From Pontibacter arcticus (lineage in GTDB: Bacteria > Bacteroidota > Bacteroidia > Cytophagales > Hymenobacteraceae): DNA of 64,000 nucleotides. The stretch's first letter is position 1. Every line of letters starts with the position of its first letter. The notes under the pieces are model-generated. The model searched no databases. It was given only the letters and a program-made list of their open reading frames with translations, and was not told the DNA's origin. Of this stretch, positions 1 to 64,000 are shown piece after piece. A program made the position numbers and the translations under genes. The stretch lies in NCBI RefSeq assembly GCF_003284895.1, contig NZ_QMDV01000001.1, positions 895,080-959,079 of the forward strand, given 5' to 3'.

Positions 1-50
1 TGCTGCAATTTATTCTTTCAGGTAAGGCTTTCTTAGATAGACCAAATAAT

Positions 51-90
51 AAAAAAGCCCCGGCAGTTTATACTTGCCGGGGCTTTTTTA
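51..90. terminator. Bidirectional hairpin terminator
   Basis: A 10-bp GC-rich stem (AGCCCCGGCA pairing with TGCCGGGGCT) has a 9-nt loop, and A6 and T6 flanks extend the pairing, so it can work in both directions. It lies 35 nt beyond the stop of the GH3 gene. The loop and stem edge contain a copy of the window-wide heptamer TATACTT. Positions 1-50 hold nothing I can assign; they may be the tail of a gene to the left. Confidence 0.85.
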
Positions 91-124
91 CTTTAACTCG
101 TCACTCAGAACGCTTAACTCAGAA

Positions 125-1645
125 CTAACTCAGTCCGTTTACCTGCATAATTTCTTCGAGGTACTCTCTGGAGTTGCTTAACCTTGGCACTTTGTTCTGC
201 CCGCCCAGCTTGCCTTTGTGGCGCAGCCAGTTTGTAAACGTGCCTGGCTGTGTGGCGTGCACGATCGGCTCCTGCAGGGCAATATCCTGCTGGCGTTTGG
301 CATCATAATCTGAGTTAATCTCCCGTAAGGTTTCATCTAATACCTGTGTGAAACGGGCCAGGTTATCTGGTGCTTTTTCAAACTCGATCAGCCACTCGTG
401 GCCACCGCGTTTGCCGCTTTCCATAAAAACGGGTGCCGCCGTAAAATTAGTGATGATAGCGCCGGTTTGCTGCGAAGCTCTGGTAATAGCCTCTTCGGCA
501 TTCTCAACAATTACTTCTTCGCCAAACGCGTTGATGAAGTGTTTTGTACGTCCGGAAATTTTAATTCTGTAAGGATCTATACTTGTAAACCGGATGGTAT
601 CGCCGATTTTGTAGCGCCACAGGCCCGCATTAGTCGAAATAACCAGTGCATAGTTCTTGCCTACTTCTACCTGGTCCAGTGTCAGGGTTGTGGGTTGCTC
701 GGCTTCAAACTGGTCCATGGGGATAAACTCGTAATAAACGCCATAATCCAGCATCAGCAACATTTCATCTTCTGTATCGCGCTGGTCCTGTATCCCGAAA
801 AAGCCTTCGGAAGCATTGTATACTTCCATATAATGCATTTTATCGGTCGGGATAATTTCTTTGAACAGTTGGCGGTACGGGCCAAAAGCTACAGCGCCGT
901 GCGTGAACAACTCCAGGTTAGGCCATACTTCGGTAATGTCTTTTTTGCCTGTAACTTCCAGAATGCGCTTAAACAAAAGGTAGGTCCAGGTGGGTACGCC
1001 GCTCATGCTGGTTACATTCTCGTTCACGGTTAGCTCCACCATCTTCTCTATCTTCTCATCCCATTTATCCATGAGCGCCACTTTTAGCGGAGGCGTACGC
1101 ATGGCTTCGGCCCAGATAGGCAGGTTCTGCATAATTACTGCCGATACATCGCCACAGGACACTTTTGCATTATACTCGCTGGGGCGATGGCTGCCGCCAA
1201 TAGAAAGGCCTTTGCCCGTAAATAGTTTGGTATCCGGGTAATTATTAACGTAGATCGACAGCATATCTTTGCCGCCTTTGTAATGGCAGTCTTCCAAGGA
1301 CTCGGGGCTTACCGGAATATACTTGCTGCGCGCATTAGTGGTACCTGATGATTTGGCATACCAGTCTATCTTCGTAGGCCAAAGTATGTTTTGCTCCCCT
1401 TTCAGGCCGCGTTCTATGTATGGAAAAAGGTCTTCGTACGTAGAAATGGGCACCCGTTCCTGAAATTCGCGCACAGAAAGGGTATCGCCGTAGCCATACT
1501 TTTTACCCCACTCTGTTCCCTTTGCTGTATGCAGCAGGTTCTGAAAAAGCTCCTGCTGTACATCATGCGGGTATTTGCGAAACAGGTCGATGTCGTGGAT
1601 CCGCTTTTTGATGACCCACGTTACGATTGAGTTTATTATTTCCAA
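125..1645 (-). CDS. GH3 (auxin-responsive promoter) family adenylating enzyme
   Basis: This 506-residue protein belongs to the GH3 branch of the adenylate-forming (ANL) superfamily. Plant members conjugate amino acids to acyl substrates, but the bacterial substrate is unknown. The ATP-binding motif SSGTT is at residues 99-103, the YNASEG motif at about 276-281, and YKIGDTIRF follows near 344, so the catalytic frame looks intact. The only usable start is TTG at 1645, because an in-frame TAG lies just upstream and no early ATG exists. In many Bacteroidota GH3 directly follows lptB; here an unknown gene and short inverted repeats separate them, which may explain the lost ATG. The family is certain, the substrate unknown. 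Confidence 0.85.
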   Translation of the reverse strand: MEIINSIVTWVIKKRIHDIDLFRKYPHDVQQELFQNLLHTAKGTEWGKKYGYGDTLSVREFQERVPISTYEDLFPYIERGLKGEQNILWPTKIDWYAKSSGTTNARSKYIPVSPESLEDCHYKGGKDMLSIYVNNYPDTKLFTGKGLSIGGSHRPSEYNAKVSCGDVSAVIMQNLPIWAEAMRTPPLKVALMDKWDEKIEKMVELTVNENVTSMSGVPTWTYLLFKRILEVTGKKDITEVWPNLELFTHGAVAFGPYRQLFKEIIPTDKMHYMEVYNASEGFFGIQDQRDTEDEMLLMLDYGVYYEFIPMDQFEAEQPTTLTLDQVEVGKNYALVISTNAGLWRYKIGDTIRFTSIDPYRIKISGRTKHFINAFGEEVIVENAEEAITRASQQTGAIITNFTAAPVFMESGKRGGHEWLIEFEKAPDNLARFTQVLDETLREINSDYDAKRQQDIALQEPIVHATQPGTFTNWLRHKGKLGGQNKVPRLSNSREYLEEIMQVNGLS

Positions 1646-1646
1646 T

Positions 1647-1680
1647 TTGATTGTTGGTTGCTAATTGTTGATTGTTTGAG
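1647..1680 (+). repeat. AT-rich short interspersed repeat (ATTGTT-type), left copy
   Basis: The tract is built from TTGATTGTTGGTTGC and TAATTGTTGATTGTTTG and sits directly before the GH3 start. A related tract in inverted orientation lies at 2408-2429, so the pair brackets the unknown gene at 1784-2344. Similar tracts recur at 60193-60275. Confidence 0.5.
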
Positions 1681-1783
1681 ATTAACTCTTCTGGTTATCG
1701 TTCATCAGTTTGATCAGGCTTTTAACCATTTTTAGCAATTTTGTAGTATACAGAGCACTATTAAAAGGAATTATGCATAATTT

Positions 1784-2344
1784 CTATTCCTCTATCAAGT
1801 TGTGAGATTCTATTGTAACAATACCTGCATCTTTGCTTTCTAATTCTTTTATCAAATCCATAAAACATTCAACAGGAGCTGTGCCAAAATCAACAGTAAA
1901 TTTTAGTATGTTTTTCGACTGCTCAGGAATTGATACACTATGAATTGCTCCCGTTAATCCTTCATTATTCATTTTAAAGGTATCCTCTTCGTCAATCCAT
2001 CTCTTTGCCCAATCTTCTATATAACTGTAATCTCCTAATTCGTCTTCTATTGTAAATTGGCAACCATGCCAGAATAATGGATAAAGCTCTACTGTAAGTT
2101 TACCATTCTCAAACACAACAGGTTCATGATTTATATAAGAATCAGGTGATAGTTCTTCAATCTTCCACTCATCATTTACCCTAATTAAGTAGTCCATTCG
2201 TGAGAGGTTAAACAGAAGCCCACTTTCTTCAGTATCAAGTTTTAAAAGAGCCTCCTTAATGCCTTCATCTCTTCCTTCGTAAAATTCTCGTAGTTGTTTA
2301 ATATATACCTCTCTATGCTTCTCTACTATCTCGTTCAATTCCAT
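1784..2344 (-). CDS. Hypothetical protein, acidic, possibly acquired
   Basis: I do not recognise this 186-residue protein. It has no signal peptide or membrane segment, is rich in Glu and Asp, and looks like a soluble cytoplasmic protein with alternating helices and strands; the tryptophans sit in short WKIEE, FWHG and IEDWAKRWI segments. Its DNA is visibly more AT-rich than lptB and GH3 on either side and uses many A/T-ending codons. It separates two genes that usually adjoin, and related short AT-rich repeats in inverted orientation flank it. This is consistent with an inserted cargo gene. An orphan immunity-type protein is conceivable but nothing in the sequence proves it. Confidence 0.6.
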   Translation of the reverse strand: MELNEIVEKHREVYIKQLREFYEGRDEGIKEALLKLDTEESGLLFNLSRMDYLIRVNDEWKIEELSPDSYINHEPVVFENGKLTVELYPLFWHGCQFTIEDELGDYSYIEDWAKRWIDEEDTFKMNNEGLTGAIHSVSIPEQSKNILKFTVDFGTAPVECFMDLIKELESKDAGIVTIESHNLIEE

Positions 2345-2407
2345 TGGTCTTTATTCATTGGTATGAAAGTGTTTTTCCTCATCCGTAAAATCCACCTACG
2401 AGAAAAA

Positions 2408-2429: not shown

Positions 2430-2431
2430 AA

Positions 2432-4164: not shown

Positions 4165-4180
4165 AAAGTATACATCCATA

Positions 4181-6159: not shown

Positions 6160-6184
6160 TTTAAAAGTATACTTTATACTTGCT

Positions 6185-8002: not shown

Positions 8003-8114
8003 AATTCTTTAACGAAAGTATACTTGATTTTGCTATGAAGGATTGGGCAAATGAGCTAAAGAAAGTTAAGTTATACTTTATACTTGCCCAAGCCATACTT
8101 TACAAAGGTGCCTT

Positions 8115-24405: not shown

Positions 24406-25131
24406 ATGCCGTTCCGCCTGCTTTTTATACTTGGTCTGATATTCGGGTTTGCACAGCTTGTGCAGGCGCAGGAAGCGCGTATACAAGTAACCAAGGTAAA
24501 GCCCGACCTCTACGTTTATACTTCGTACGGCACATTTAACGGCGAAAAGGTACCAGCCAACGGCCTGATCATCAGCACAACCGATAGCGTGGTGCTGATA
24601 GATACACCCTGGGACGATCCGCAGACAGAACAGGTACTGACCTGGGTTGCAAAAAACCTGAAAAAGCCTGTTACACACTGCATTGTTACGCACGCGCACC
24701 AGGACAGAATGGGTGGCATTGCAGCTTTGCAAAAACAAAAAGTAAAAGTATGGAGTACTGCGCTAACTTCTAAAAAAGCATTTGAGCAAGGTCTGGGCAA
24801 CCCAAGCCCTGTTTTACCTCCTACTGATACAACTTTTACGATTGGCAGAACCGAAATAGAAGTATACTTTCCGGGAGCAGGCCATGTACCGGATAACCTG
24901 GTGGTATGGCTGCCCGAAACAAAGTTGCTTGCAGGGGGTTGCCTGGTAAAAGCAGAAGATGCCAAAAACCTGGGAAATGTAGCAGAAGCCAACCTTACGG
25001 CCTGGCCAGAAGCGATCAGGCATGTGCTATTCAGGTACCCTGATGCCGCCGTTGTGGTACCCGGCCACGGACCGTTAAGCGATAACAAAGCCCTGCATCA
25101 TACTTTAAAATTACTCTTGCAGCGGAAGTAA
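24406..25131 (+). CDS. Subclass B1 metallo-beta-lactamase
   Basis: The 241-residue exported protein (signal peptide to about AQA, residue 22) keeps every B1 zinc ligand: His96, His98 and Asp100 in HAHQDR, His160 in GHVPDN, Cys179 in GGCLVK, and His221 in VPGHGPL. Lys182 and the LGN segment (189-191) are substrate-contact positions in B1 enzymes. Known B1 enzymes hydrolyse penicillins, cephalosporins and carbapenems in the periplasm. This one resembles the chromosomal Flavobacteriia types (BlaB/IND) in the GGCLVKAEDAKNLGN block. The ATG at 24406 is preferred over TTG 24400. Resistance itself is inferred, not shown. Confidence 0.85.
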   Translation: MPFRLLFILGLIFGFAQLVQAQEARIQVTKVKPDLYVYTSYGTFNGEKVPANGLIISTTDSVVLIDTPWDDPQTEQVLTWVAKNLKKPVTHCIVTHAHQDRMGGIAALQKQKVKVWSTALTSKKAFEQGLGNPSPVLPPTDTTFTIGRTEIEVYFPGAGHVPDNLVVWLPETKLLAGGCLVKAEDAKNLGNVAEANLTAWPEAIRHVLFRYPDAAVVVPGHGPLSDNKALHHTLKLLLQRK

Positions 25132-28385: not shown

Positions 28386-30239
28386 ATGAAAGAAGCTAAA
28401 AAAGGAACACGCTCCGCAATACAGAACCCCAACGATAAAAAAAGCTTTAAAGAGCAAGTAGGCGCACTCAAAAACCTGCCTAAATTTTTCAGGCTGATCT
28501 GGCATACCAGCAAAAGCATGACCATCGGCAACATGCTGTTGCGCCTCGTAAAATCGGCTATTCCGCTGGCGATGTTGTATGTGGGCAAGCTGATTATTGA
28601 TGAAGTGATCCGGCAATACGGGCTGAACGGCGAACGCGAACTAACTTATTTATGGGAACTCGTAGCGCTGGAACTTGGACTGGCAGTACTTTCCGACCTC
28701 ATTAACCGCGGCATTACGCTGCTCGATAGCCTGCTCGGCGATCTGTTCTCCAACAAAACCTCTGTCACCTTAATAGAACATGCCGCTACGCTGGACCTAG
28801 CCCAGTTCGAAGATGCTACTTTTTACGATAAACTGGAGCGGGCACGTAGGCAAACGGTAACGCGAGTGGTGCTGATGTCGCAGGTACTCTCGCAGGTGCA
28901 GGATATGGTTACGATTGCTTTCCTGGCCGTTGGCCTTATCGCTTTTAACCCGTGGCTGATCGTTATACTTTTGATTGCGGTAATTCCGTCTTTCCTCGGC
29001 GAATCGCATTTTAACGAACGCACCTACTCCTTATCCCGCTCCTGGACGCCCGAACGCCGCGAACTCGATTACCTGCGCTACATTGGTGCCTCCGACGAAA
29101 CAGCCAAAGAGATCAAAACCTTTAACCTTTCCGGTTTCCTGGCAGATCGTTTCCGGGCACTTTCGGATAGGTATTATAACCTGAACAAGAACCTGATTGT
29201 GCGGCGCGCTGTGTGGGGAAGTATACTTTCGGGTATTGGTACGCTGGCGTATTATGGGGCTTACGTGTTTATACTTTTCAGGGCGGTTTCAGGTGCTATT
29301 TCTATTGGTGATCTCACGTTTCTGGCGGGTTCCTTTAACAACATGCGCGGGCTGCTGCAGGGCATCATGACACGTTTTTCGCAAATCGCTGAGAGCGCTT
29401 TATACTTGCAGGACCTGTTCGATTTCCTGGAATTGAAACCAAACATTACACCTCCGGTTAACCCGCATCTTATTCCGAGGCCGATACAGAAAGGCTTTAC
29501 CTTTGAGAACGTCGGGTTTAAATACCATAACAGCGAGCGCTGGGCCGTGCGGCACCTCTCTTTCCATCTGCAGGCCGGCGAAAAACTGGCGTTGGTTGGT
29601 GAGAACGGCGCTGGCAAAACTACCTTGGTTAAGCTCTTAGCACGCCTTTACGAACCCACAGAAGGCCGCATACTTTTAGATGGAAAAGACCTGCGGGATT
29701 ATGATCTGAACGATCTGCGGCACCAGGTGGGCATTATTTTCCAGGATTTTGTGCGGTTCCAGATGTCGGCTTCCGATAACATTGCCATTGGCCAGATCAG
29801 CAATATTTTAGATAAAGACCGCATCCAAACATCCGCCCATAAAAGTTTAGCCGATCAGGTTATTCAGAAACTACCAGACAAGTATGAGCAGGTGTTAGGC
29901 AAGCGCTTTAACAAAGGTGTGGAGCTATCGGGTGGCGAGTGGCAGAAAGTAGCGCTGGCCCGTGCTTACATGCGCGATGCACAGTTGCTTATTTTAGATG
30001 AGCCAACCTCAGCTTTGGATGCGCGCGCCGAACACGAGGTTTTCCTTCGTTTCTCTGAACTGATTGCCGGTAAAACTGCCGTGCTTATCTCCCACCGCTT
30101 TTCTACGGTACGCATGGCCGATCGGATCTTGTTTCTGGAGAATGGCCAGTTGAAAGAGCTAGGTTCGCATGAAGAGCTTCTGGCGCAAAACGGGAAGTAT
30201 GCCGAGTTGTTTACACTTCAGGCTAAAGGTTACTTATAG
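28386..30239 (+). CDS. ABC exporter, fused permease and ATPase
   Basis: The 617-residue half-transporter has about six transmembrane helices in residues 45-330 and a C-terminal ATPase. The ATPase has Walker A GENGAGKTTL, a Q-loop in GIIFQDFVRF, signature LSGGEWQKVALARA, Walker B LLILDEPTSALDA and H-loop LISHRFSTVR, all intact. Homodimers of this type export peptides, lipids or drugs. Unusual is the soluble basic N-terminus of about 40 residues (KEAKKGTRSAIQNPNDKK). No peptidase C39 domain and no precursor peptide gene is adjacent. The substrate is unknown. Several Ile-Leu pairs are written ATA CTT (28965, 29223, 29271). Confidence 0.9.
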   Translation: MKEAKKGTRSAIQNPNDKKSFKEQVGALKNLPKFFRLIWHTSKSMTIGNMLLRLVKSAIPLAMLYVGKLIIDEVIRQYGLNGERELTYLWELVALELGLAVLSDLINRGITLLDSLLGDLFSNKTSVTLIEHAATLDLAQFEDATFYDKLERARRQTVTRVVLMSQVLSQVQDMVTIAFLAVGLIAFNPWLIVILLIAVIPSFLGESHFNERTYSLSRSWTPERRELDYLRYIGASDETAKEIKTFNLSGFLADRFRALSDRYYNLNKNLIVRRAVWGSILSGIGTLAYYGAYVFILFRAVSGAISIGDLTFLAGSFNNMRGLLQGIMTRFSQIAESALYLQDLFDFLELKPNITPPVNPHLIPRPIQKGFTFENVGFKYHNSERWAVRHLSFHLQAGEKLALVGENGAGKTTLVKLLARLYEPTEGRILLDGKDLRDYDLNDLRHQVGIIFQDFVRFQMSASDNIAIGQISNILDKDRIQTSAHKSLADQVIQKLPDKYEQVLGKRFNKGVELSGGEWQKVALARAYMRDAQLLILDEPTSALDARAEHEVFLRFSELIAGKTAVLISHRFSTVRMADRILFLENGQLKELGSHEELLAQNGKYAELFTLQAKGYL

Positions 30240-30805: not shown

Positions 30806-31432
30806 TTAAAAAGGCAGACGCCAGTTGCTGATCTGCTGGAAGAAGTTTGGCAGTGCTTGTGGTACAAAAGCAATGCTCAGTACAAACCCGTAAACAGCGC
30901 CGTAAAAGTGAGCGTCGTGGTTAATGTTATCACCCATGCGCTTGCCCTGGTAATAAGAGTAGATTAGATACAGCACACCAAGTATAAAACCCGGAATGCA
31001 AAGTATAGCATACAGGCAAATATCCTGTGTAGGATAAAAAAGTATACTTGAGAACACAACAGCGGCCACACCACCTGATGCGCCCAATGCGCGGTAACCC
31101 GGATCGTTGCGGTGTTTCAGGTAAGTCGGAATATCTGCTACAATAACGCCGCCCAAATAAATCAGCAAATAAATCAGGATGCCGGTTGTACCTCCGAAAA
31201 AGGCACCAAACGTCTGCTCCACGGCATTGCCAAAGAAGAACAGCGTAAACATGTTAAAAAGCAGGTGCGTGAAATCGGCGTGCAGAAACCCGGAGGTCAA
31301 AAAGCGGTGCCACGAATTATCGCGCTGAATACGGTATGGTTCAAAGATCCAACCAGCCATTAAGCTGTGGTTCTTCCAAGCGTACCACGAAATCCCAACG
31401 GTAAGTATAATTAATATAAGAGTAATGCTCAT
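30806..31432 (-). CDS. Rhomboid family intramembrane serine protease
   Basis: The 208-residue polytopic protein carries the rhomboid signature: HADFTHLLFNM (51-61) in the second helix, GASGGVAAV with catalytic Ser119, and the catalytic His175 in NHDAHFYGAVYGF. The dyad is therefore complete. Rhomboids cut transmembrane helices of client proteins. It is monocistronic, and its upstream 490-nt gap holds only repeats. Clients are unknown; sortase-like processing of surface proteins is one known bacterial role. Confidence 0.9.
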   Translation of the reverse strand: MSITLILIILTVGISWYAWKNHSLMAGWIFEPYRIQRDNSWHRFLTSGFLHADFTHLLFNMFTLFFFGNAVEQTFGAFFGGTTGILIYLLIYLGGVIVADIPTYLKHRNDPGYRALGASGGVAAVVFSSILFYPTQDICLYAILCIPGFILGVLYLIYSYYQGKRMGDNINHDAHFYGAVYGFVLSIAFVPQALPNFFQQISNWRLPF

Positions 31433-31923: not shown

Positions 31924-32898
31924 CTAAGCCTCTCGCTCCATTAGTTGCAGGGCAAGGTTGCGTAAGTCGGTTTTCTGATTTTCTGCCACCTCCACAGCGT
32001 CTAAATGCTGCATGGCTTTCTGGAAGTATACTTCTATCTGCTGCTCGGTTTGCTGTTTTATCTGGAGTTGGTCATACACTTCTGTTACAGCTTTTACTTT
32101 TTCAGCAGTTATACTTTCGTCGGTTTTGTGGCGCCAGGCTTTTATACTTTGGAGTTGCGATTCGTCAGCTTGTTCGAGCGCGGTCAGCATCAAAAACGTT
32201 TTCTTATCCGATAGTATATCGCCGCCTACCTGCTTGCCAAATTTCGCTTTATCGCCATACACATCCAACAAATCATCGCGCAGCTGGAAAGCAATACCAA
32301 TGTTAATACCGAATGCCTGCAGATGTGCCGAATCCGCTTCGGGTGCGCCCTGCAATAGAGCGCCCATCTCTAAACTGAAACCAAGCAGCACTGCTGTCTT
32401 CAGGGTGATCATGTGGATGTACTCGGGTATGCTTACCTGCTGGCGTTGCTCAAAATTCATGTCGAGTTGCTGGCCTTCGCATACTTCAGCAGCGGCTTTA
32501 CTAAACAATTGCAACACCTTTGGAAGTATGGCCGGCTCAATACCCAGTAACAGTTCGTACGCACGCACCAGCATCACATCCCCGGAAAGTATGGCCGTGT
32601 TGGCGTTCCACTTTTCGTGTACGGTTTGCTGCCCACGGCGTAGTGGTGCCTTGTCCATGATGTCGTCGTGGAGGAGGGTAAAGTTGTGGAAAACCTCTAC
32701 TGCCGCAGCTGGCAAAAGTAGGTTTTCCACATCGTCTTTATACATATTTGCGGCCAGCAGCGCCAATAAAGGCCTTATCCGTTTTCCGCCCAACGCCATA
32801 ATATACCGGATAGGCTCGTAAAGTTCCGGTGGGTTTTCGCCATAGCGAAGGCTGCTTAATGTGTTATTCAGTTTTTCGGAAAGGGTGCTGCTATCCAC
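31924..32898 (-). CDS. Polyprenyl (trans-isoprenyl) diphosphate synthase
   Basis: The 324-residue enzyme condenses isopentenyl diphosphate with allylic diphosphates. Both Asp-rich motifs are intact: LLHDDIMDKAPLRRG (first) and FQLRDDLLDVYGD (second), with GGKRIRP near the N-terminus and GQQLDMNFE between. Chain length cannot be fixed reliably; the bulkier residues upstream of the first motif (FHNFTLLHDD) suggest a short-to-medium product. It supplies quinone tails, undecaprenyl precursors or carotenoids. It starts 5 nt after the stop of RNase R, so the two are cotranscribed. Confidence 0.9.
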   Translation of the reverse strand: MDSSTLSEKLNNTLSSLRYGENPPELYEPIRYIMALGGKRIRPLLALLAANMYKDDVENLLLPAAAVEVFHNFTLLHDDIMDKAPLRRGQQTVHEKWNANTAILSGDVMLVRAYELLLGIEPAILPKVLQLFSKAAAEVCEGQQLDMNFEQRQQVSIPEYIHMITLKTAVLLGFSLEMGALLQGAPEADSAHLQAFGINIGIAFQLRDDLLDVYGDKAKFGKQVGGDILSDKKTFLMLTALEQADESQLQSIKAWRHKTDESITAEKVKAVTEVYDQLQIKQQTEQQIEVYFQKAMQHLDAVEVAENQKTDLRNLALQLMEREA

Positions 32899-32903: not shown

Positions 32904-35300
32904 TTAATGTTGTTTCAGGGTCTCTACTAATTCCAGATCGATGGTGCGTTCGGCCAAGTTGGCGCCGGTTACTTCGACCATCACCTCATCGCCAAACGAA
33001 ATAATACGCTTGTTCTGGCGGCCTATTACACGGTAGTTATCGGCATCCAGTTCGTAATAATCGTCGTTGAGGCTGGAGAGGCGAACCATGCCTTCGCATT
33101 TGTTTTCTTCGATCTCCACAAAGATACCCCATTCTGTTACACCAGACACAATCCCTTTGTACTGGTTGCCGATGGTATCTTTCATGAACTCCACCTGCTT
33201 GTACTTGATAGAGGCACGCTCGGCATCTGCAGCGCGTTTCTCCATGTCAGAAGAATGCTGGCAACGCTTTTCGAATTCTTCTTTGTCTTCGTTTTTGCCA
33301 CCATCTAAATAGAACTGCAACAGGCGATGCGCCATCATATCGGGGTAACGACGGATGGGCGATGTAAAGTGAGAATAGTGTGCGAATGCCAGACCAAAGT
33401 GGCCTTCGGGCTCGGTGCTATACTTGGCTTTTGCCATCGTGCGTATCGCCAGGTTCTGCAGTACGTTCTGCTCCGGTTTGCCTTCGGTATCTTCTGCCAG
33501 CCTGTTTAGCTCATTCGAAATATTTCCTTCCGGATCTACTTTATAGCCAAATTTACGCGCGAAAATAGAGAAGGTGCTCAGTCTGTCCGGGTCCGGGGCG
33601 CCGTGGGTACGGTACACCATGGTCGGGCGTTTTTTATCTTTGCCCAGGTTATACACATATTCGGCTACTTTGCGGTTAGCCAGCAACATGAATTCCTCGA
33701 TCAGTTTATGGGCATCTTTCCGCTCTTTTACATAAATGTATAGCGGCTTGCCGTTCTCATCGAGCTTAAATTTAACTTCGGTTGTTTCGAAACTGATAGC
33801 GCCGTTCTTAAAGCGTTTGTCTTTCAGCTTTTTGGCAATCTCGTTTAGCGTGTTGATTTCCTCGGCAAAGTCACCTTCGCCGGTTTCGATGCGCTCCTGT
33901 GCTTCTTCGTAGGCAAACCTGCGGTCAGAATAAATAACGGTGCGGCCATACCAGGTATCGTATAACCTGCCGGTATCGTCCAGCTCAAATACAACCGAGA
34001 AGGTTAGCTTTTCTTCTTCAGGGCGCAGCGAGCAAAGGCCATTCGAGAGGCGCTCAGGCAACATTGGAATTGTTCTGTCTACTAAGTATACCGACGTAGC
34101 TCTGTGGAAGGCTTCTTTCTCGAGGGTGGTGCGCGGCGTTACATAATGCGTTACATCGGCAATATGCACTCCTATTTCCCAGTGGCCGTTCTCTAATTTC
34201 TGAATCGAAAGGGCATCGTCAAAATCTTTTGCGTCGGCAGGGTCAATGGTAAAAGTGGTTACGTTGCGGAAGTCGCGGCGCTTGGCAATTTCTTCTTTTG
34301 TGATTTCCTCTGATATCGTTTCTGCTTCTTCTTCCACAGACTCCGGAAACTCGAACGGCAACCCGAACTCCGCCATAATAGAATGGATCTCGGCTTCGTG
34401 CTCGCCTGCCGGGCCAAACACACGGATTACTTCGCCAATCGGGTTTTTATCTGGTTTGGTGGGCCACTCTACTATTTTAACCAATACCTTATCGCGTGCC
34501 TGTGCGCCGTTAAGCCCACGTTCGCCTACAAAAATATCGAAGTATAACTTTTTAGAATCCGGCACTACAAACCCAAAATTTTTGGAAAGCTCCATGATAC
34601 CTACCAGTTCGGTACGCTTGCGCTCCACCACCTCTACTACAATGCCTTCGGCGCGGCCACCGCTGCGGGTTGGCAGTACTTCTACTTTTACGATGTCGCC
34701 ATCCATGGCATACTTCAGGTGTTCGCGGTATACCCGTACATCGTCTTCCAATTCTTCTGATACGATGTAGGCATACTTGTTATTAGCCAGATCTACGCGG
34801 CCTGTAATAATATCAACACGCAGGTTTAACGTATATTTGCCTTCTGATAGTAGCAGTTTTTTATCCTCTACCAGTAAGTTCAGCATTTCCGAAACCATTT
34901 CGCGGCCTTTCTTATCAGTTACACCCATGCGGCGGAACACCTGCTGAATGGTAAAAGGAGTATCGGGGCTATTAGAGAACGACTCCAGCACAATGCTTTT
35001 GGCGGCTCTTCGCTCACCATTGCGGCGGTTATCCTGCTTTCTTAAGTATGAATCTTTTCCGGATGGCTGGCCTTTATCAGAAAAACCTCTGCTGGAAGAT
35101 GACCTGCCTTTGGAGTTACTGTTTCTGCCTGAGGAGGAAGATTTGCCTCTTGCACTTCCAGCTGCTCCTCTTTCTGAAGATGACTTACTTCTTGCACTTG
35201 CACCATCTCTTGCGGCTGAAGAACCGTCTTCGGAGCGTGATTTTCTTTTATCGGGGCGGCCGGTATTATCTCTGCCGCCTTTGTCTTGTTTGCTTCTCAT
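32904..35300 (-). CDS. rnr: RNase R, 3'-5' exoribonuclease
   Basis: RNase R degrades structured RNA. Domains in order: a disordered basic Ser/Arg/Gly-rich N-terminus of about 105 residues, a winged-helix segment (FTIQQVFRRMGVTDKKGREMV), two cold-shock domains, the RNB catalytic domain with TIDPADAKDFDDALSI (metal-binding Asp cluster) and the S1 domain near the C-terminus (GIVSGVTEWGIFVEI). Total 798 residues. The SSSSRGFSDKG-type tail is on the N-terminus here, whereas E. coli RNase R has its basic extension at the C-terminus. Cotranscribed with the polyprenyl synthase gene. Confidence 0.95.
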   Translation of the reverse strand: MRSKQDKGGRDNTGRPDKRKSRSEDGSSAARDGASARSKSSSERGAAGSARGKSSSSGRNSNSKGRSSSSRGFSDKGQPSGKDSYLRKQDNRRNGERRAAKSIVLESFSNSPDTPFTIQQVFRRMGVTDKKGREMVSEMLNLLVEDKKLLLSEGKYTLNLRVDIITGRVDLANNKYAYIVSEELEDDVRVYREHLKYAMDGDIVKVEVLPTRSGGRAEGIVVEVVERKRTELVGIMELSKNFGFVVPDSKKLYFDIFVGERGLNGAQARDKVLVKIVEWPTKPDKNPIGEVIRVFGPAGEHEAEIHSIMAEFGLPFEFPESVEEEAETISEEITKEEIAKRRDFRNVTTFTIDPADAKDFDDALSIQKLENGHWEIGVHIADVTHYVTPRTTLEKEAFHRATSVYLVDRTIPMLPERLSNGLCSLRPEEEKLTFSVVFELDDTGRLYDTWYGRTVIYSDRRFAYEEAQERIETGEGDFAEEINTLNEIAKKLKDKRFKNGAISFETTEVKFKLDENGKPLYIYVKERKDAHKLIEEFMLLANRKVAEYVYNLGKDKKRPTMVYRTHGAPDPDRLSTFSIFARKFGYKVDPEGNISNELNRLAEDTEGKPEQNVLQNLAIRTMAKAKYSTEPEGHFGLAFAHYSHFTSPIRRYPDMMAHRLLQFYLDGGKNEDKEEFEKRCQHSSDMEKRAADAERASIKYKQVEFMKDTIGNQYKGIVSGVTEWGIFVEIEENKCEGMVRLSSLNDDYYELDADNYRVIGRQNKRIISFGDEVMVEVTGANLAERTIDLELVETLKQH

Positions 35301-35580: not shown

Positions 35581-37383
35581 CTAGACTGAACCTGCTTTCA
35601 TAAGGTCACGTTTCTGTTGGGCTTTTATAATATCTTCGGGTTCGCCCTTCGGGATGGCGTTGATCAGGACGCGGGTATAGTCCTGCTGCGGGTTTAAGTA
35701 TAACTGGTCGGGGGTGCCGCTTTCTATGATCTGGCCTTTGCTCATTACCAGAATCCGGTCCGACATATACTTGGCAACTGACAGATCGTGGGTAATGAAA
35801 ATGTAGGTAATCCCGAACTCCTGCTTTAGTTTGTTGAGTAAATTAAGTACCTGCGCCTGCACCGACACATCCAGCGCTGAAACAGATTCATCACAAATTA
35901 TACATTTTGGTTGTAATGCTAAAGCCCGTGCTATACAGATCCGTTGCCGCTGCCCACCCGAAAACTCATGTGGATAACGCTGGAAATGCTCTCTGGTAAG
36001 TCCTACTTTTTCAAGTAGTTGCATGGTGACTTCTTTTCTTTCCTGGTTGCTGTTGTAAAGTTTATGCACATGCATCGGCTCCATAATGGCTTCGCCTACG
36101 GTGTGCATCGGGTTAAGCGAAGCATAAGGGTCCTGGAAAATCATCTGAAAATCCCGGCGGCTTTTACGGAGTTCTTCTGCGCTCAGCTTTGCAATATCTA
36201 CACCATCAAAAAGTATGCTGCCATCTGTTGGCTCTACCAGCCTGAGCAAGGAACGGCCCAGCGTTGTTTTGCCGCAACCAGATTCGCCTACAAGGCCAAT
36301 GGTTTCGCCGGGCTGTACCGTGAAGCTGACATTATCTACTGCCTTTACATAATCTGTGGTCCGCGCGAAAAAGCCTTTCTTGATCGGGAAGTATACTTTC
36401 AGGTTCCTGACTTCGAGTAACGGCTCTGTAGTTTCCTTTAGCTTTATACTTGCTGGCGCAGGCTGTTCCAGTTCTTCAAGTATACTTGACTTCTTTCTCT
36501 CGGTGATGTTGCCCTGCGCATCTTCCACCATAAAATCAGACACAGTCGGAAGTATGGATTGGGCTTTGGCCGTTAATTTAGGGCGACAGGCCAGCAACCC
36601 TTTTGTGTAGGGGTGTTGCGGGTTGGTGAAAATATCCAACACGCGGCCTTGCTCTACCAGTTTGCCTTTATACATTACCAGAATGCGGTCGGCAATTTCG
36701 GCAACAACTCCCAGGTCGTGGGTAATAAACAGAACGGCCGTATTTTCTTTTACTCTGAGTTCATCAATCAACTCCAGCATACGAGCCTGCACCGTTACAT
36801 CCAAAGCAGTTGTTGGTTCGTCGGCAATCAGTATACTTGGTTCGCAGGCCATAGCCATTGCAATCATGACGCGTTGCTTTTGTCCGCCTGAAATCTCATG
36901 TGGATAAGCGTCATAAATTTTCTCTGGTCGAGGTAGTTTTGCTTTCTCAAAAAGGGAAATCGTGCGGTTTCTGGCTTCTTCTTTCGATAAATTAGTATGC
37001 AGCAGCAGTACTTCAGCAACTTGTTTTCCACAGGTATAAACCGGGTTCAAAGACGACATCGGCTCCTGGAAAATCATACTTATCTCGTTGCCCCGTACCT
37101 GCTGCATCTGCTTTTCAGGTAAGGTAAACAGGTCTACTTCGCCAAACCGCTCCGACTGAAAAATAGCAGTTCCGCCAGCTATTCGGCCCGGCGGCGTATT
37201 GATCAGGCGCATCACAGAAAGCGACGTTACCGACTTCCCTGAACCCGACTCTCCTACTATGGCCACTGTCTCGCCTGGGTATACTTCAAACGATACCTTG
37301 TCCACGGCTTTGGTAGTGCCGCGGTGCGTCGAGAAAACGGTTTCCAGATCGGTTACTTTAAGGATGGGTTTGGTTGCAGGCAA
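35581..37383 (-). CDS. Fused dipeptide/oligopeptide ABC transporter ATPase (DppD-DppF)
   Basis: Two complete ATPase domains lie in one 600-residue chain. The first has [23 protein letters not shown] and [11 protein letters not shown]; the second has [24 protein letters not shown] and [11 protein letters not shown]. Each ends in the oligopeptide/dipeptide C-terminal extension ([11 protein letters not shown] and [11 protein letters not shown]). Such fusions energise peptide or nickel import with separate permease subunits and a binding protein. None of those genes is next to it, so it is an orphan ATPase locus. The second Walker B has Ser in place of the usual Pro after Asp-Glu, a normal variant in DppF. 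Confidence 0.9.
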
Positions 37384-39101: not shown

Positions 39102-42100
39102 TTAAATAGTTGTAACTACTTCGGTTTGGATGCTGATGTACACCTGGAACTCATCCATCTCCAGCAAGGTACCGCCAGCCAGGTTCTCCACCACCGTAAG
39201 CGATAACGCCTGCGTTTCGGTGCAGATGGCTTCGCGGAAATTCTCGACAGCTGCGTTTACTTCCGGCGCGGCCTGTTGCATGGTAATATGGATCTTGTCC
39301 TGTACTTCGAGGTTAGAATCCTTGCGCAGGTTTTGGATGCGGTTTACCAGGTCACGGGCGATGCCTTCCTGCTTCAGTTCTTCGGTGATGGTTACATCGA
39401 GCGCAACCGTCAGTTTGCCTTCGTTCGCTACGAGCCAGCCTGGGATATCTTCCGAAGAAATTTCCACATCATCCGGCGTAAGCACTGCACTTTCATCATC
39501 GGCTATCACTACTTCAAAAGCACCTTCACGCTCCAGGGTAGCAATGTTATCCTGGTTCATTTGCTGCACTGCGGCAGCTACCAGTTTCATCTTTGGCCCG
39601 AATACCTGACCAAGCTTTTTAAAGTTAGGCTTGATCTTTTTCACCAGGATACCAGATGTATCATCAATGTACTCGATGTGCTTGATGTTTACTTCCGACA
39701 TGATCAGGTCTTCTACGGCCTGTATCTGCTGGCGTGTATGCGCGTTCAGTACCGGAATAAGGATGCGCTGCAACGGCTGTCGTACTTTGATAAAGTGCTT
39801 TTTGCGGAGTGAGTGTACCAGCGACGAAATAGTCTGAGCCAGTTCCATGCGCTCTTCCAGTTCCTTATCCACGGCTGCAGTTACTAATTCCGGGTAATTA
39901 GCCAGGTGCACCGATTCTACCTGGTTTCTGCCGCTTACGTTATTCAGGTCACGGAACAGTTGTTCGGTGTAGAATGGCGCAATCGGAGAAGCAAGCTTAG
40001 CAATAGTTTCCAAACAAGTATAAAGTGTCTGGTAAGCGGCAATCTTGTCTTCGTTGTACTCCCCTTTCCAGAAACGTTTGCGGTTCAGGCGCACATACCA
40101 GTTACTCATGTCATCCACCACAAAATCCTGAATAGCACGGGCAGCTTTGGTTGGATCGTAATCAGCCAGATAACCATCCACATCCTGCACCAGCGTATTC
40201 AGCTTCGAGATAATCCAACGGTCGCTTTCTGTTCTGCGCTCCAACGGTACATCGGCTTCAGCATACGTGAAGTTATCCAGGTTGGTATACAGCGCGAAGA
40301 AAGAATACGTGTTCTGCAGCGTTCCGAAGAAACGGCGCTGGGTTTCTACAACACCATCGGCGTTGAATTTCAGGTTATCCCAAGGCGGTGCATTTGCGAT
40401 CATATACCAACGCACGGCATCCGGACCATACTGGCCAATCATTTCGAACGGGTCGATAGCGTTGCCGAGGCGCTTGCTCATCTTGTTTCCGTTCTTATCC
40501 AGCACCAGGCCGTTCGCAATTACGTTCTTATAAGCCACGCTATCTTCCAGCATTACAGCCAGCGCATGCAGTGTAAAGAACCAACCACGCGTTTGGTCTA
40601 CCCCTTCGGCAATATAATCTGCCGGGAAGTTCTGCTCGAATATTTCTTTGTTCTCCAACGGGTAATGCCACTGTGCATAAGGCATCGCACCAGAATCAAA
40701 CCAAACATCGATAAGGTCTGGCTCTCTGTACATTGGCTTACCAGATGGGCTTGCCAAAATGATGTTATCCACGTAAGGGCGGTGCAGGTCGTGTATCTCA
40801 ACTGCTGCATCCATGAAGCCTTTTTCCACAGCCACATCTATCTGCTCGCTCAGTTCGGCAATAGAACCGATGCAACGTTCTTCTTCACCATCTTCGGTTC
40901 GCCAGATAGGTAATGGCGTTCCCCAGTAGCGCGAGCGCGACAGGTTCCAGTCCACTAAATTCTCGAGCCAGTTACCAAAACGACCAGAGCCCGTAGATTC
41001 CGGTTTCCAGTTAATGGTTTTGTTCAGCTCGATCATTCTGTCTTTTACCGCAGTCGTTCTGATGAACCAGCTATCCAATGGGTAGTATAAAACAGGCTTA
41101 TCGGTTCGCCAGCAATGCGGGTAGGTGTGCTCATACTTTTCAACCTTAAACGCCTTGCCTTCTTCTTTCAGTTTGATGGCAATAAGTACGTCGGTTGGTT
41201 TGTAGTCTGCAGCAGATTCGTCCTGGCCATCGTAGTTTTTCACGTACATGCCGGCAAAGTCTGTAATCTCTTTTACAAAGCGGCCCTGCTTATCTACGAT
41301 CGGCATTGGTTTGCCATTTTCGTCGGTTACCAGCAAGGCAGGTATATCGTTCTGAGCAGCTACTCTAAAGTCGTCGGCACCAAATGTTGGCGAAATATGC
41401 ACGATACCGGTACCATCTTCTGTTGTCACGAAATCACCGATCACCACTCTGAAAGCTGGCTTGTCCGGCTGCACATATGGCATCAACTGGTGATACTCTA
41501 CACCATTCAGGTCTGCACCATTAAATTCTTCTACTATTTTAAACGGCACTAGTTTATCGCCTGGGTTATATGCTTCCAGGGCAATGTCCTTGGCTTTCTC
41601 GTTAAAGTAGCGGCTCACCAGATCTTTGGCAAGTATAACTGAGATCGGCGCGTAAGTGTAAGGGTTGTACGTTTTAACTTTTACATACTTGATGCCTTTA
41701 CCCACTGCCAGACCCGTATTGGCCGGAAGCGTCCAGGGCGTTGTAGTCCAGGCCAGGAAGTATACTTGCTCCGCTTCGCTCTCGAACAGGAACATGTTGC
41801 GGGTAATCTTCTTGATCTCGAACTGGGCTGCAATGGTGGTATCTTTCACCATTTTGTAGCAACCTGGCTGGTTCAGTTCGTGCGAGCTAAGGCCTGTTCC
41901 GGCACCCGGCGAGTAAGGCTGTATGCTGTAGCCTTTGTACAGATAGCCTTTATCATACAACCTGCGCAGCAAGGCCCAGCAAGATTCTATGTAGTCGTTC
42001 TCGAATGTGATGTATGGGTTATCCAGGTCTACCCAGTAGCCCATTTTCTCGGTCAGGTCGTCCCATTGGCTTTTGAAACGCATAACTGTTTCGCGGCAAC

Positions 42101-60275: not shown

Positions 60276-60627
60276 ATTTGGCGCTTCCGCGTTCTTTCAG
60301 TTCTTCCCAATACTCCACTGCTCTCCTGAAATGCGGGATTACAATAGAACCACCTACCAGGTTGGCAATAGAGAATACTTCCATTATTTCTTCATCAGTT
60401 AAGCCCTCGTCGTAGCATTTGCCTACGTGGTACTTAATGCAATCGTCGCAACGCAACACCATACTGGCTACCAGGCCCAGCATTTCCTTGGTTTTTACAT
60501 CGAGTGCGCCGGCTGCATATGTATTGGTATCGAGGTTAAAAAAGCGCTTTATTACTTTATTGTCGTAGGTCATGATGCGCTCGTTCATGCGCAGACGATA
60601 GTCGTTGAATTCTTCTACTAAGCTCAT
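60274..60627 (-). CDS. Carboxymuconolactone decarboxylase/AhpD-like protein
   Basis: The 117-residue helical protein has the AhpD-family redox motif CDDCIKYHV (two Cys two residues apart, His three residues after the second Cys), within LRCDDCIKYHVGKCYDEG. AhpD-like members reduce peroxiredoxins or act as gamma-carboxymuconolactone decarboxylases; the Cys pair favours the redox role here. The DEEIMEVFSIANLVGGSIVIPHFRRAVEY tail is typical. It lies upstream of the unknown 114-residue gene on the same strand. Confidence 0.85.
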   Translation of the reverse strand: MSLVEEFNDYRLRMNERIMTYDNKVIKRFFNLDTNTYAAGALDVKTKEMLGLVASMVLRCDDCIKYHVGKCYDEGLTDEEIMEVFSIANLVGGSIVIPHFRRAVEYWEELKERGSAK

Positions 60628-60721
60628 TGTTGTGTTGTTTTGCTATCGGTTTAGCTTTAAAATTTATACTATAAAGTTAAGAGAAATTAACTACAATTCC
60701 TTAAACCAACGGTACTTGCCA

Positions 60722-61408
60722 ATGTTCGAAGACCTGCTTGCTTTATTGTTCCCGGAAACTTGTTATGGCTGCGACAAAGCGCTGGGCAAAGGCGAAAAAT
60801 GTATCTGTACCGATTGTAGTATAAAGCTGCCTTACACCAATTTCCATCAAAACGACTTGCACGAACTTAACCCGCTGGAGCGCAGGTTCTGGGGGAAAGT
60901 GCCCGTAAAGTATGCGTTCTCTTATCTGCATTTTGAATCGAAGGGGCGTGTGCAGCGCTTGTTGCACCGGCTAAAGTATAAAGGTGCGCAGGATCTGGGA
61001 GAGCACATCGGCAAACAGTATGGCTACCAGTTAGCCGAACACAAGTATAATTTGCAGTTTGATCTGATCGTGCCGGTACCGCTACACAAAATTAAGTTAC
61101 GCAAACGCGGTTATAACCAATCCGATTGTTTCGCTACGGGCCTTGCCGAGGCTATGCAACTCCCCTGGAATGCTAAAGCGCTAGCCCGCACAACTTATAC
61201 CAGCACGCAAACTAGCAAAACCCGCTTCGACCGCTGGCAAAACGTGGAACAGGTGTTCATGGTAAACCTGCCGGATGAGGTAAAAGACAAGCGTGTACTT
61301 TTGGTGGATGATGTGCTAACGACCGGTGCTACACTAGAAGCTTGCGCTGTTGCTTTGCTGGATGCAGGTGCGGCAGAGGTAAGTATAGCTACGATTGCAG
61401 CGGCTTAA
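60722..61408 (+). CDS. ComF family phosphoribosyltransferase-like protein
   Basis: The 228-residue protein starts with a zinc-ribbon (CYGCDKALG and CICTDC) and continues with a phosphoribosyltransferase fold. The PRPP-loop is VLLVDDVLTTGATL, and KLRKRGYNQSD precedes it. ComF/GntX relatives take part in DNA uptake in naturally competent bacteria, probably in single-strand import or nucleotide scavenging. I choose the ATG at 60722; a longer frame starting at 60605 adds 39 residues unlike ComF. The presence of ComF is worth noting next to the over-represented AAGTATA heptamer, because uptake sequences are one explanation for such a motif. Confidence 0.9.
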   Translation: MFEDLLALLFPETCYGCDKALGKGEKCICTDCSIKLPYTNFHQNDLHELNPLERRFWGKVPVKYAFSYLHFESKGRVQRLLHRLKYKGAQDLGEHIGKQYGYQLAEHKYNLQFDLIVPVPLHKIKLRKRGYNQSDCFATGLAEAMQLPWNAKALARTTYTSTQTSKTRFDRWQNVEQVFMVNLPDEVKDKRVLLVDDVLTTGATLEACAVALLDAGAAEVSIATIAAA

Positions 61409-62064: not shown

Positions 62065-62096
62065 AAAAAAGCCCGGAATCTCTTCCGGGCTTTTTT
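62065..62096 (-). terminator. Terminator of gldJ
   Basis: AAAAAAGCCCGGAA pairs with TTCCGGGCTTTTTT around a 4-nt loop. A TATACTT heptamer follows directly. Confidence 0.85.
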
Positions 62097-62115
62097 ATAC
62101 TTCAAAAAGTAATGT

Positions 62116-63357
62116 CTATTTGTTAGATCCGGCGTTGATCATAGCGCAACGGAAACCGATTGTAGCAGTAGAAGAATCCTGTGCCATGAAACGGCGTGTA
62201 CCAGGAGATAACCAGTAAGCTACATCTTTCCAGGAGCCACCTTTAAATACGCGAACTTCGTCGTTAATTAAAGAGTGGTAACCTTCGCTTGAGTCGTAGT
62301 TAGCAGAATCATCTAAGAAACCATCTCTACGGAAAGGGTTTAAGTCTTCCACATCTTCGTAAGAAAGCGGACGGTAAAGATCCTGTACCCATTCGTTTAC
62401 GTTACCAGCCATGTTATACAAACCAAAGTCGTTTGGAGGGTAGCTGTAGATATAATCCGTGATCATGGCACCATCGTTTAATGAACCGGCAATACCGGCA
62501 TAGTCACCACGGCCACGCTTGAAGTTAGCCATAAACTTACCCATTTCACGACCGTACGGGTTACGTACCTGGTGGCCATCCCAAGGGTAAAGTCTTCTGT
62601 TGTTCTGGTTTTCGTCGTCAGAATATTGTGTACCGATCATTGCCTGAGCAGCATACTCCCATTCTGCTTCTGTTGGGAGACGATAGTTTGGTAATACGTA
62701 ACCAGATTCGATCGTTGGCTTGCTTGCTTCAGCAGTAGGTTCGCTGCCACCTTTTCTGCGGCCAAATAAACCTCTTCTTCCACCGCCGTTTCCGTCTCCG
62801 GCTTCTAAAGCAAGGTTTTCGTTTACCTTAGCTGTACGCCAAACGCAGAAATCGTTTGCCTGTAACCAGCTTACACCCACCACCGGGAAAAAGCGGAAAC
62901 CAGGGTAACGCAGGTAATAAGAAATATATGGGTCGTTGAATGATAACTGGCGGGACCAAACAGTTGTATCCGGTAAAGCGGCTGTGTATACTTCCGGAAG
63001 AGAATCTTTCTTTAGGTAATGCAGGTACTCCAGCCAGGTAATATTCGATACTTCGGTTTCATCCATGTAGAAAGAAGCCACTGTAACGGTACGCTCAATA
63101 TTGTCACGGGTCATGGCAACATCTTCTTCCATAGAACCCAGCACTGTACGGCCACCTTCAATAAACACTAAACCCGGGCCTTGCGGAAACTCAGCGTAAT
63201 CATTTACCTGAAATGATCCTTCTTCTTCGTTGTAAGCTATGCCTGTAGCCGCACTTACATCGCCTGGGTTTGTGCTGGTTGGCTGGCCTCCCCTGTTACA
63301 GGAAGTCATCAGGAATCCGCCTACAACTGCAACCGATAAATACTTAATTAATCTCAT
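62116..63357 (-). CDS. gldJ: GldJ-type gliding/T9SS lipoprotein (SUMF1 fold)
   Basis: From the ATG at 63357 the protein has 413 residues. A lipobox (MTSC, Cys20) is followed by a formylglycine-generating-enzyme-like (SUMF1/EgtB) domain. Recognisable are FIEGGRTVLGS, SFYMDETEVSN, YYLRYPGFRFFPVVGVSWLQAND, YRLPTEAEWEYAA, NMAGNVNEWVQDLY and VRVFKGGSWKDVAYWLSPGTRRF. The PVVGVSW and DETEVSN arrangement resembles GldJ more than GldK. GldJ and GldK are outer-membrane-associated parts of the gliding/T9SS machinery. A Gly/Arg-rich insert (GDGNGGGRRGLFGRRKGG) interrupts the fold. It follows a PorP/SprF gene, but gldL, gldM and gldN are not next to it. Confidence 0.7.
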   Translation of the reverse strand: MRLIKYLSVAVVGGFLMTSCNRGGQPTSTNPGDVSAATGIAYNEEEGSFQVNDYAEFPQGPGLVFIEGGRTVLGSMEEDVAMTRDNIERTVTVASFYMDETEVSNITWLEYLHYLKKDSLPEVYTAALPDTTVWSRQLSFNDPYISYYLRYPGFRFFPVVGVSWLQANDFCVWRTAKVNENLALEAGDGNGGGRRGLFGRRKGGSEPTAEASKPTIESGYVLPNYRLPTEAEWEYAAQAMIGTQYSDDENQNNRRLYPWDGHQVRNPYGREMGKFMANFKRGRGDYAGIAGSLNDGAMITDYIYSYPPNDFGLYNMAGNVNEWVQDLYRPLSYEDVEDLNPFRRDGFLDDSANYDSSEGYHSLINDEVRVFKGGSWKDVAYWLSPGTRRFMAQDSSTATIGFRCAMINAGSNK

Positions 63358-63421
63358 AAAAGTAGCACCCAATTTTGATAAGGTTCTTGTAACGTAATTT
63401 AATGTGCAATTATAACTAAAA

Positions 63422-64000
63422 TTAGAACGCCGGACAAAAAATGTTCCGTTTAATTTTGTGTCCTAAGTTGTTTTCGAAAAATTTTGTCAGAGACAGTTGT
63501 TCAAAAACCAGTGAAATTTCTGTTGCGCCACCCACCTGCTTGCTAAACCCCTTTAAACCAACGTCGTGGCTAAAACCGATCCTGAACTGAGAAAGTTGCA
63601 CACCGGCCATTAAAGCAAGCGTTTGGTCCTGGTTAGCATCGCCGGTAACCGGAACGCCTTTATATATTATGCCTAACGAAACAGGTGTGTAATTAGTGCT
63701 AAATCCTACATCAAATCTGTTAAAATTTTGTTGGTGGTGGTACGTAAGTGTTGGCGTAAAGCTAACTTCAAACAATTTGCCCCGCCGCTCATAGGCTTTC
63801 GCGTAAAATTTATACCCCGCAATAGCCGTATAATGGATAGAGAGCCTTGATTCTTGTTCAAATCCAGTGGATGGCATATTAAGATGCGCGGCGCTTAAAC
63901 CTGCCCAGAAACGGTTGGTATAAAGAAGTGTACCAACTTTAAAAGTAAGGTAATTGCTTGGTGTAAAGTTATTTACTTCGGCTGATGTGAGTGAGTGTTG
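63422..64000 (-). CDS. PorP/SprF-type outer-membrane protein (partial at window edge)
   Basis: The frame is open to the end of the window, so only the C-terminal 192 residues are seen. Segments such as FWAGLSAAHLNMP, SIHYTAIAGYKF, NRFDVGFSTNYTPVSLGIIYKG, GVQLSQFRIGFSHDVGLKGFS and TEISLVFEQL are beta-barrel strands matching the PorP/SprF family. Members of this family pair with T9SS cargo adhesins or attach PorKN rings to the outer membrane. The gldJ-type gene follows 64 nt downstream and may share its transcript. Confidence 0.8.
   Translation of the reverse strand, partial: QHSLTSAEVNNFTPSNYLTFKVGTLLYTNRFWAGLSAAHLNMPSTGFEQESRLSIHYTAIAGYKFYAKAYERRGKLFEVSFTPTLTYHHQQNFNRFDVGFSTNYTPVSLGIIYKGVPVTGDANQDQTLALMAGVQLSQFRIGFSHDVGLKGFSKQVGGATEISLVFEQLSLTKFFENNLGHKIKRNIFCPAF

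Follow-up and report, generated by a model that had tools for sequence, protein, structure and literature searches.

A stretch of 64,000 bases from the genome of Pontibacter arcticus (contig NZ_QMDV01000001.1 of assembly GCF_003284895.1, here C1, positions 895080-959079; hereafter the window) raises the question of why a single heptamer, AAGTATA, or TATACTT where the word lies on the minus strand, recurs throughout it. The first-pass annotation had put the number of copies at about 160; the exact count is 165 (66 AAGTATA and 99 TATACTT), where base composition predicts 12.7, in line with the earlier estimate of about 13 once AT bias is included. Comparisons across the genome, genus, and family suggest that the word may be a self-tag resembling a DNA uptake sequence and read by a pilus-independent machine, a reading to which we assign a probability of roughly one half.

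When a third-order Markov model is trained on the window's own sequence, word copies included, it predicts 30.7 copies. One hundred heptamers permuted from the same seven letters (AAGTATA and the four permutations that overlap it removed) average 12.7 occurrences with a maximum of 38, so scrambled words of the same composition show no equal excess. AAGTATAAA (68 copies against 4.2 expected) and AAGTATG (63 against 16.4) are also frequent. The strand split of 66:99 agrees with the 4.8:7.8 predicted from composition, and 102 of the 165 copies fall inside 52 open reading frames (ORFs) taken as genes (55.7 kb covered), in keeping with the earlier statement that copies occupy coding and intergenic DNA in both orientations. 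Nine palindromic double copies listed in the first-pass annotation are all present, at most nine bases from the places given there. The features of the window that bear on the word are as follows.

1..64000, both strands: dispersed AAG-dialect word, 165 copies by exact count (66 AAGTATA on the plus strand; 99 TATACTT, word on the minus strand)
6165..6174: palindromic double copy AAGTATACTT
8016..8025: palindromic double copy AAGTATACTT
24860..24869: palindromic double copy AAGTATACTT
29219..29228: palindromic double copy AAGTATACTT
31040..31049: palindromic double copy AAGTATACTT
32024..32033: palindromic double copy AAGTATACTT
36389..36398: palindromic double copy AAGTATACTT
36478..36487: palindromic double copy AAGTATACTT
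41758..41767: palindromic double copy AAGTATACTT
32904..35300, minus strand: RNase R gene, the anchor for fetching orthologous regions; outside the proposed mechanism
60605..61408, plus strand: putative ComF-like protein with phosphoribosyltransferase domain PF00156 (the name ComF comes from the first-pass annotation and is presumed, as is a link to the word)

Genome-Wide Abundance and Specificity for Pontibacter

Over the 3.77 Mb genome TTTATACTT occurs 3,679 times (1,885 + 1,794) and the reversed word 42 times (26 + 16), and the excess seen in the window thus holds genome-wide. The RNase R encoded in the window has its best orthologues, among named genome contigs, in Pontibacter (Hymenobacteraceae, Bacteroidota), and the family was surveyed through 200 genomes, 50 from Pontibacter and 150 from five other genera. 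In these 150, TTTATACTT peaks at 260 copies, in a genome with 137 copies of the reversed control, and the top ratio over the reversed control in 22 genomes from other families of the order is about 1.3.

Dialects and Their Place on the Tree

Each Pontibacter genome was typed by de novo 7- and 8-mer counting in the orthologous 16-22 kb around RNase R (64 kb for P. arcticus), so the assignments reflect word density in one region under thresholds of our own. The sample of 50 species (30 named loci, 19 further genomes, and the window) divides into 20 with AAGTATA, 12 with AGGTATAG, five with AACTATAG, three mixed between AAG and AAC, and 10 with no clear word, that is, 40 word-bearing and 10 motif-less genomes. 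The dialects are written AAGTATA(A), AGGTATA(G), and AACTATA(G). Counts over whole genomes follow the typing: all but one of the 20 AAG genomes have 1,270-4,337 TTTATACTT (the exception, P. harenae, has 572), while AGGTATAG reaches 2,823-5,222 in its 12 genomes and at most 833 elsewhere, and AACTATAG 6,288-8,208 in its five genomes, 907, 2,002, and 2,617 in the mixed three, and at most 476 elsewhere.

On a tree of seven proteins the AGG species form one clade and the AAC and mixed species another (support 100 for each), while the absence of a word requires four changes, each forced by well-supported branches. Clade-consistent dialects around a conserved core, a hallmark of uptake sequences, are therefore what the genus displays. 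P. ruber, an AAG species, branches as sister to the AGG clade, and the mixed P. vulgaris as sister to the remaining AAC clade, positions from which AAG is most simply read as the ancestral dialect. Among motif-less genomes, a residue of TTTATACTT over its reversed control persists in G025 (317 vs. 87) and G141 (285 vs. 95) and is scant in G026 (99 vs. 70), G028 (139 vs. 77), and G151 (128 vs. 82).

Several genomes stand out individually. P. harenae (G007) and G002 are borderline in typing. Pontibacter sp. E15-1 (G036), typed as motif-less, holds 751 AGGTATAG against 158 reversed and 211 TTTATACTT against 42. All three show a low excess of more than one dialect word together, perhaps reflecting decaying or relaxed specificity. 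In the AAG-dialect genome G020, about 40 copies of AGGTATAG lie in one orientation at roughly 66-base spacing (C1:1944098-1946633), which looks like a CRISPR (clustered regularly interspaced short palindromic repeats) array with AGGTATAG inside the repeat and raises the forward AGGTATAG count of that genome. Locus L036 carries the record name Botryobacter ruber and is assigned to Pontibacter by the genome collection. Motif-less genomes are also larger (mean 5.79 vs. 4.60 Mb, rounded sizes, Mann-Whitney p 3e-6), a trend that on well-supported branches comes down to only three independent pairs, of which 1.8-2.8 agree on average (median sign-test p 0.25-0.5, varying with the size threshold). Larger motif-less genomes would fit a loss of recombination-based genome cleaning, which we offer as a lead only.

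Conservation and In-Place Switching of Sites

Site identity between species was measured in gapless codon alignments only, with species pairs that are not independent of one another. Within the AAG dialect, an AAGTATA site of one species is unchanged in another in 45.7% of comparisons, where permuted words average 15.8%; the figure is 7.4% toward motif-less species and 2.5% toward other genera. The same sites read AGGTATA in 16.6% of comparisons with AGG species and AAGTATA in 8.9%, while AGGTATA is found at them in 5.9% of comparisons with motif-less species; conversely, comparing AGG sites with AAG species finds AAGTATA there in 20.8%.

Comparison with neighbouring synonymous sites, proposed as a check in the first-pass annotation, gives a consistent answer: within every dialect, synonymous third positions are more conserved inside the word than in its flanks (0.702 vs. 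0.565 for AAG, 0.763 vs. 0.653 for AGG, and 0.813 vs. 0.674 for AAC). Toward motif-less species the relation is reversed (0.363 vs. 0.528, 0.418 vs. 0.530, and 0.290 vs. 0.528, respectively), and AAG sites compared with AAC species still stand above their flanks (0.593 vs. 0.527). One of seven permuted control words, AAGATAT, reached 0.577 inside the word, as against 0.702 for AAGTATA.

Alignments of whole loci agree. Across 11 comparisons of related loci of the same dialect, 64-85% of sites are identical, against 28-64% of background heptamers; in one of the pairs (L010 and L013, 82% nucleotide identity) 84% of 43 sites are identical and 28.5% of background heptamers. An AAC locus set against a mixed one (L103 and L097) shares 42% of sites against a 34% background, and two motif-less locus pairs contain merely four and three sites.

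Plasmids, Islands, and Placement of Sites

The first 50 kb of plasmids from P. actiniarum, P. akesuensis, and P. kalidii carry 27, 9, and 18 copies, where chromosome samples presumed to be from the same species predict about 63, 88, and 100 per 50 kb and plasmid composition alone predicts 7.3, 6.1, and 9.2. In P. arcticus, contig C6, which bears resolvase and type III-like restriction genes, has 17 copies in 40 kb, where its composition predicts 9.3 and the rate on the chromosome would give about 100. Low-density bins of the chromosome include a type I restriction island, and another low-density stretch resembles, by eye, sugar transferases. The word is thus depleted in recently acquired DNA. 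Contig C6 also encodes a helicase-like protein (L128:2046-4292) with a TBP-TOTE domain (PF22721), close to restriction-type helicases.

Elsewhere in the P. arcticus genome (1.70 Mb, contig C6 excluded) the density is 2.52/kb, or about one site per 400 bases, and is four-fold higher outside genes (7.15/kb) than in genes of at least 100 codons (1.78/kb). A copy is present in 994 of 1,366 genes, and in-gene copies occupy all six frame-orientation classes (1,292 sense, 1,320 antisense). Sense copies are found preferentially near the end of a gene and antisense copies near its start (chi-square p 5e-8), a lean that we treat as a hint because ORF starts are crude.

Alignment of 1,182 sites from a 464-kb sample defines the word as (A)AAGTATA followed mostly by A. 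Position 7 accepts G, position 8 accepts C and G and hardly T, the AGG and AAC dialects tolerate slightly different bases, and other one-mismatch words lie mostly near expectation. Relative to a second-order Markov model, each dialect group has a single word in 21- to 50-fold excess, and most of the other neighbours stay close to background. A faint hint of phased flanks in the window disappeared with 1,182 sites, across which no further flanking signal or phased tracts were found. The palindromic extension singled out in the first-pass annotation, real at the nine places listed above, proved a minor form genome-wide, with 134 places, or 268 of 4,283 sites, in 1.74 Mb. A terminator or paired-site role was set aside, as no inverted pair up to 20 bases stands out besides the overlapping palindrome (pairs up to 60 bases were examined, in the 464-kb sample only). 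Head-to-tail copies exactly seven bases apart recur in the 1.74 Mb, with 22 ++ pairs and 21 in the -- arrangement; the latter show further peaks at 12 bases (17) and 14 bases (25).

Dispersed Words in Other Hymenobacteraceae

The RNase R loci of 50 genomes from other genera of the family include some with dispersed words of their own. In H. fodinae (L082, genome G222), CTAGGCCA occurs 4,554 times genome-wide against 72 for the reversed word, and ACCTAGGT, CTACCCC, GGGGCCCC, AACGCTAT, and AAAACAG are frequent at other loci (L041, L045, L053-L056, L071, L072, and L074). When 13 genomes were examined in a fresh region the words were replicated in nine, namely H. fodinae (in less than 10 kb), H. 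cavernae, H. crusticola, H. latericoloratus, H. citatus, H. nivis, H. coccineus, A. terrigena, and R. ruber. Of the remaining four, H. sediminis did not replicate its candidate words, and strain BT770, R. immobilis, and H. properus did so only weakly.

A Proposed Self-Tag Model and the Search for a Reader

The Pontibacter word is abundant, dispersed, oriented as composition predicts, conserved, switched in place between dialects, absent at four places in the tree, and depleted on plasmids and islands. Judged from genome sequence, the testable hallmarks of an uptake sequence are present, except that a mutational origin is only partly shown and a pilus was not found. We therefore hold that the word would act in the manner of an uptake sequence but stop short of classing it as one. 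Uptake as the process, loss as the reason why the word is absent, a reader other than a type IV pilin, and a downstream route made up of ComEC, a helix-hairpin-helix protein, and ComF are all inferred. In such a model, a surface or periplasmic DNA-binding protein would prefer fragments bearing its own word, and the DNA of dead kin would thereby enter more often than foreign DNA. Recombination of word-bearing fragments would then spread and preserve the word, through molecular drive and/or selection. If the preference of the reader shifted by one or two bases, sites would be converted singly, producing dialect clades and mixed intermediates; if the reader were lost, sites would decay. Somewhat more doubtful is the broader proposal that sequence-specific DNA uptake evolved independently a third time, here for the first time in Bacteroidota and without a type IV pilus, that its specificity switched at least twice in one genus and was repeatedly lost, and that unrelated words serve likewise in sister Hymenobacteraceae genera.

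In Riemerella, which also belongs to the Bacteroidota, transformation requires ComEC, DprA, ComF, RecA, and a helix-hairpin-helix protein, together with additional proteins whose functions are unknown, some of which are predicted to lie at the cell surface (PMC8459023). These requirements make a pilus-independent route plausible in Bacteroidota.

Several observations weigh against the self-tag model. First, the tested machinery does not follow the word. ComEC (PF03772) and helix-hairpin-helix proteins (PF12836) are each present in 50 of 50 Pontibacter genomes, the 10 motif-less ones included, and no tested gene tracks the word across these genomes. Type IV minor pilins serve as the known or predicted readers of uptake words, and a search of the 50 genomes with PF00437 gave no convincing type IV pilus ATPase (pilins and secretins were not searched); partial matches cover about 60 of 370 positions, in three of the 50 genomes at 25.0-25.9 bits against a curated cut-off of 24.9, and were judged not to be pilus ATPases. 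Second, the anatomy departs in part from expectation, as AT-rich phased flanks of the uptake signal sequence (USS) type are absent at the 1,182 aligned sites and spacing is not even, 5-kb bins being over-dispersed (mean 12.6, variance 21.0). Third, two of the 70 permuted words with enough data for the site-identity comparison (of 105), the non-overlapping ATGAAAT and TGAAATA, are conserved better than the word, probably through protein constraint. Fourth, sites not shared between related loci are one substitution away in 23-88% of cases (over half in six of 12 comparisons), and indels affect 0-8% of sites (background 0.2-2.8%), leaving 92-100% gapless. Finally, the P. actiniarum plasmid carries 3.7 times its own compositional expectation, an excess that is real though reduced. 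Because part of the unshared sites lie one substitution away, substitution is one source of sites; recombination or small indels may be others, and recombination is reported as a source of Neisseria sites, with conversion tracts there enriched for the uptake word (PMC2397512). DNA uptake, one of the options listed in the first-pass annotation, is the one best supported by anatomy and evolution, while the ComF gene offered as its clue says little and ComEC is common to motif-less genomes.

Candidate partner genes were set aside one by one. ComEC and the PF12836 family do not discriminate, as both occur in every genome. DUF5689, considered by analogy with Riemerella, occurs in 22 of 50 genomes in two frame classes. 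Its long frames (1,099-1,299 residues) give ten matches, four in motif-less genomes, and its short frames (413-450 residues) twelve, all in word-bearing genomes (12/40 vs. 0/10); the twelve have differing neighbours that by eye indicate at least two kinds of locus, and were set aside as not one gene. An alpha/beta hydrolase adjoining the helix-hairpin-helix gene was present at first in P. arcticus and three word-bearing loci and absent from four motif-less loci, but genus-wide it occurs in five of 10 motif-less genomes and is missing from three of 40 word-bearing ones. Among the matches listed, a helix-hairpin-helix protein of 304-346 residues is found in 49 of 50 genomes. In the remaining one, the word-bearing G022, it exists in short frames only (C1:2078296-2078647). 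The ComEC frame is interrupted in G022 (C1:2771217-2771876) and in G009 (C76:160505-161305), also word-bearing; these interruptions are either real decay or assembly errors.

Alternative Explanations

The main rival is a word resembling the cyanobacterial highly iterated palindrome 1 (HIP1), made and kept by a DNA methyltransferase and/or motif-directed mismatch repair, with dialects following enzyme specificity and no uptake involved. In some cyanobacterial lineages alternate HIP words replace HIP1 and track methyltransferases (PMC4390886), and frequent words in sister genera include palindromic ones (ACCTAGGT and GGGGCCCC). These palindromic words keep the explanation alive, as does the partial methyltransferase profile: our scan, a crude combination of sequence motifs and Pfam, covered 46% of the P. 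arcticus genome. It recovered type I and type III-like methyltransferases, and these lie in the low-density island and on the low-density contig C6. Directed repair should leave one of the one-mismatch neighbours specifically depleted, which is not seen, and HIP words are GC-rich palindromes (PMC4390886), whereas the Pontibacter word is AT-rich and non-palindromic. The HIP1 option of the first-pass annotation thus survives as the leading competitor while failing on the form of the word, and we consider it unlikely.

Slightly less probable still is that the word is bound by a nucleoid protein, a chromosome organiser, or another house-keeping DNA-binding protein that evolves along with it. A chromosomal, dispersed, and symmetric word, found about once per 400 bases and denser between genes, is what such a protein might leave, and any binding protein could drive a change of dialect. 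The word is missing, however, at four places in the tree, in species that otherwise look normal, and we know of no nucleoid protein with so sharp a word in thousands of copies.

Over-represented short words can also be Chi sites, which brings in a Chi-like recombination hotspot or a replication-polar site as an explanation. Known Chi words are G-rich and skewed. With local GC skew as a proxy for the replication axis, the orientation toward the locally G-rich strand is 648:527, where composition alone predicts 636:539 (p 0.48), and the overall orientation in 23 samples is 556:619. The Chi-like and segregation-site options raised in the first-pass annotation are weakened accordingly, and we regard this explanation as improbable. 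Neutral context-dependent mutation or codon bias alone, the long-term mutational bias of the earlier list, would fit the concentration of copies outside genes, where constraint is weak, but is the least probable of all in view of a 21- to 50-fold excess of a single word per dialect group (other neighbours lying mostly near background), the use of all six frame-orientation classes, conservation above the surroundings, in-place dialect switching, and low density on plasmids of word-bearing species of the same genus.

Three dialects, their intermediates, and repeated absence within one genus make Pontibacter a natural experiment on code change. With 40 word-bearing and 10 motif-less species, a pilus-independent reader should be findable by comparison of gene content. 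Should uptake prove not to be the cause, these genomes would provide a clean case for what drives HIP1-like words. No report of this motif appears among the matches listed in openly licensed literature on the word itself, on uptake sequences in Bacteroidota or Hymenobacter, or on Pontibacter and natural transformation, the last yielding one paper, on LexA.

Comparison with Known Systems

HIP1 and its alternates are, like the Pontibacter word, very frequent and absent or replaced in some related lineages, although the cyanobacterial words are GC-rich palindromes tied to methyltransferases (PMC4390886). With Riemerella the resemblance lies in the machinery, since Pontibacter has ComEC, a helix-hairpin-helix protein, and, in the window, a ComF-like gene. 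R. columbina reportedly favours its own DNA; the portion of the source consulted describes low-complexity 10-mers and words at 0.5/kb, leaves their function open, and mentions no comparably frequent word (PMC7965970). No counterpart of the Riemerella surface proteins that tracks the word was found in Pontibacter.

The USS of Pasteurellaceae are close in form. They are words of about nine bases in thousands of copies, of two clade-specific types (Hin and Apl) (PMC1626085), with sense copies toward gene ends and antisense copies toward starts (PMC2346458). The Pontibacter word is unrelated to them, lacks their AT-rich phased flanks, and shows neither orientation in excess inside genes.

Close parallels are found in the DNA uptake sequences (DUS) of Neisseriaceae, despite clear differences. 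ComP, which reads the DUS, belongs to the type IV minor pilins, whereas the pilus ATPase search in Pontibacter gave no convincing match. The words are unrelated, and Pontibacter has three dialects within one genus with motif-less species interspersed. In both groups, nevertheless, a short non-palindromic word occurs in thousands of copies on both strands, exists as dialects that differ by a few bases and follow phylogeny around a core (CTG in DUS, A..TATA here), is conserved above its surroundings, and is rare in recently acquired DNA (PMC3630211; PMC12616744; PMC2397512).

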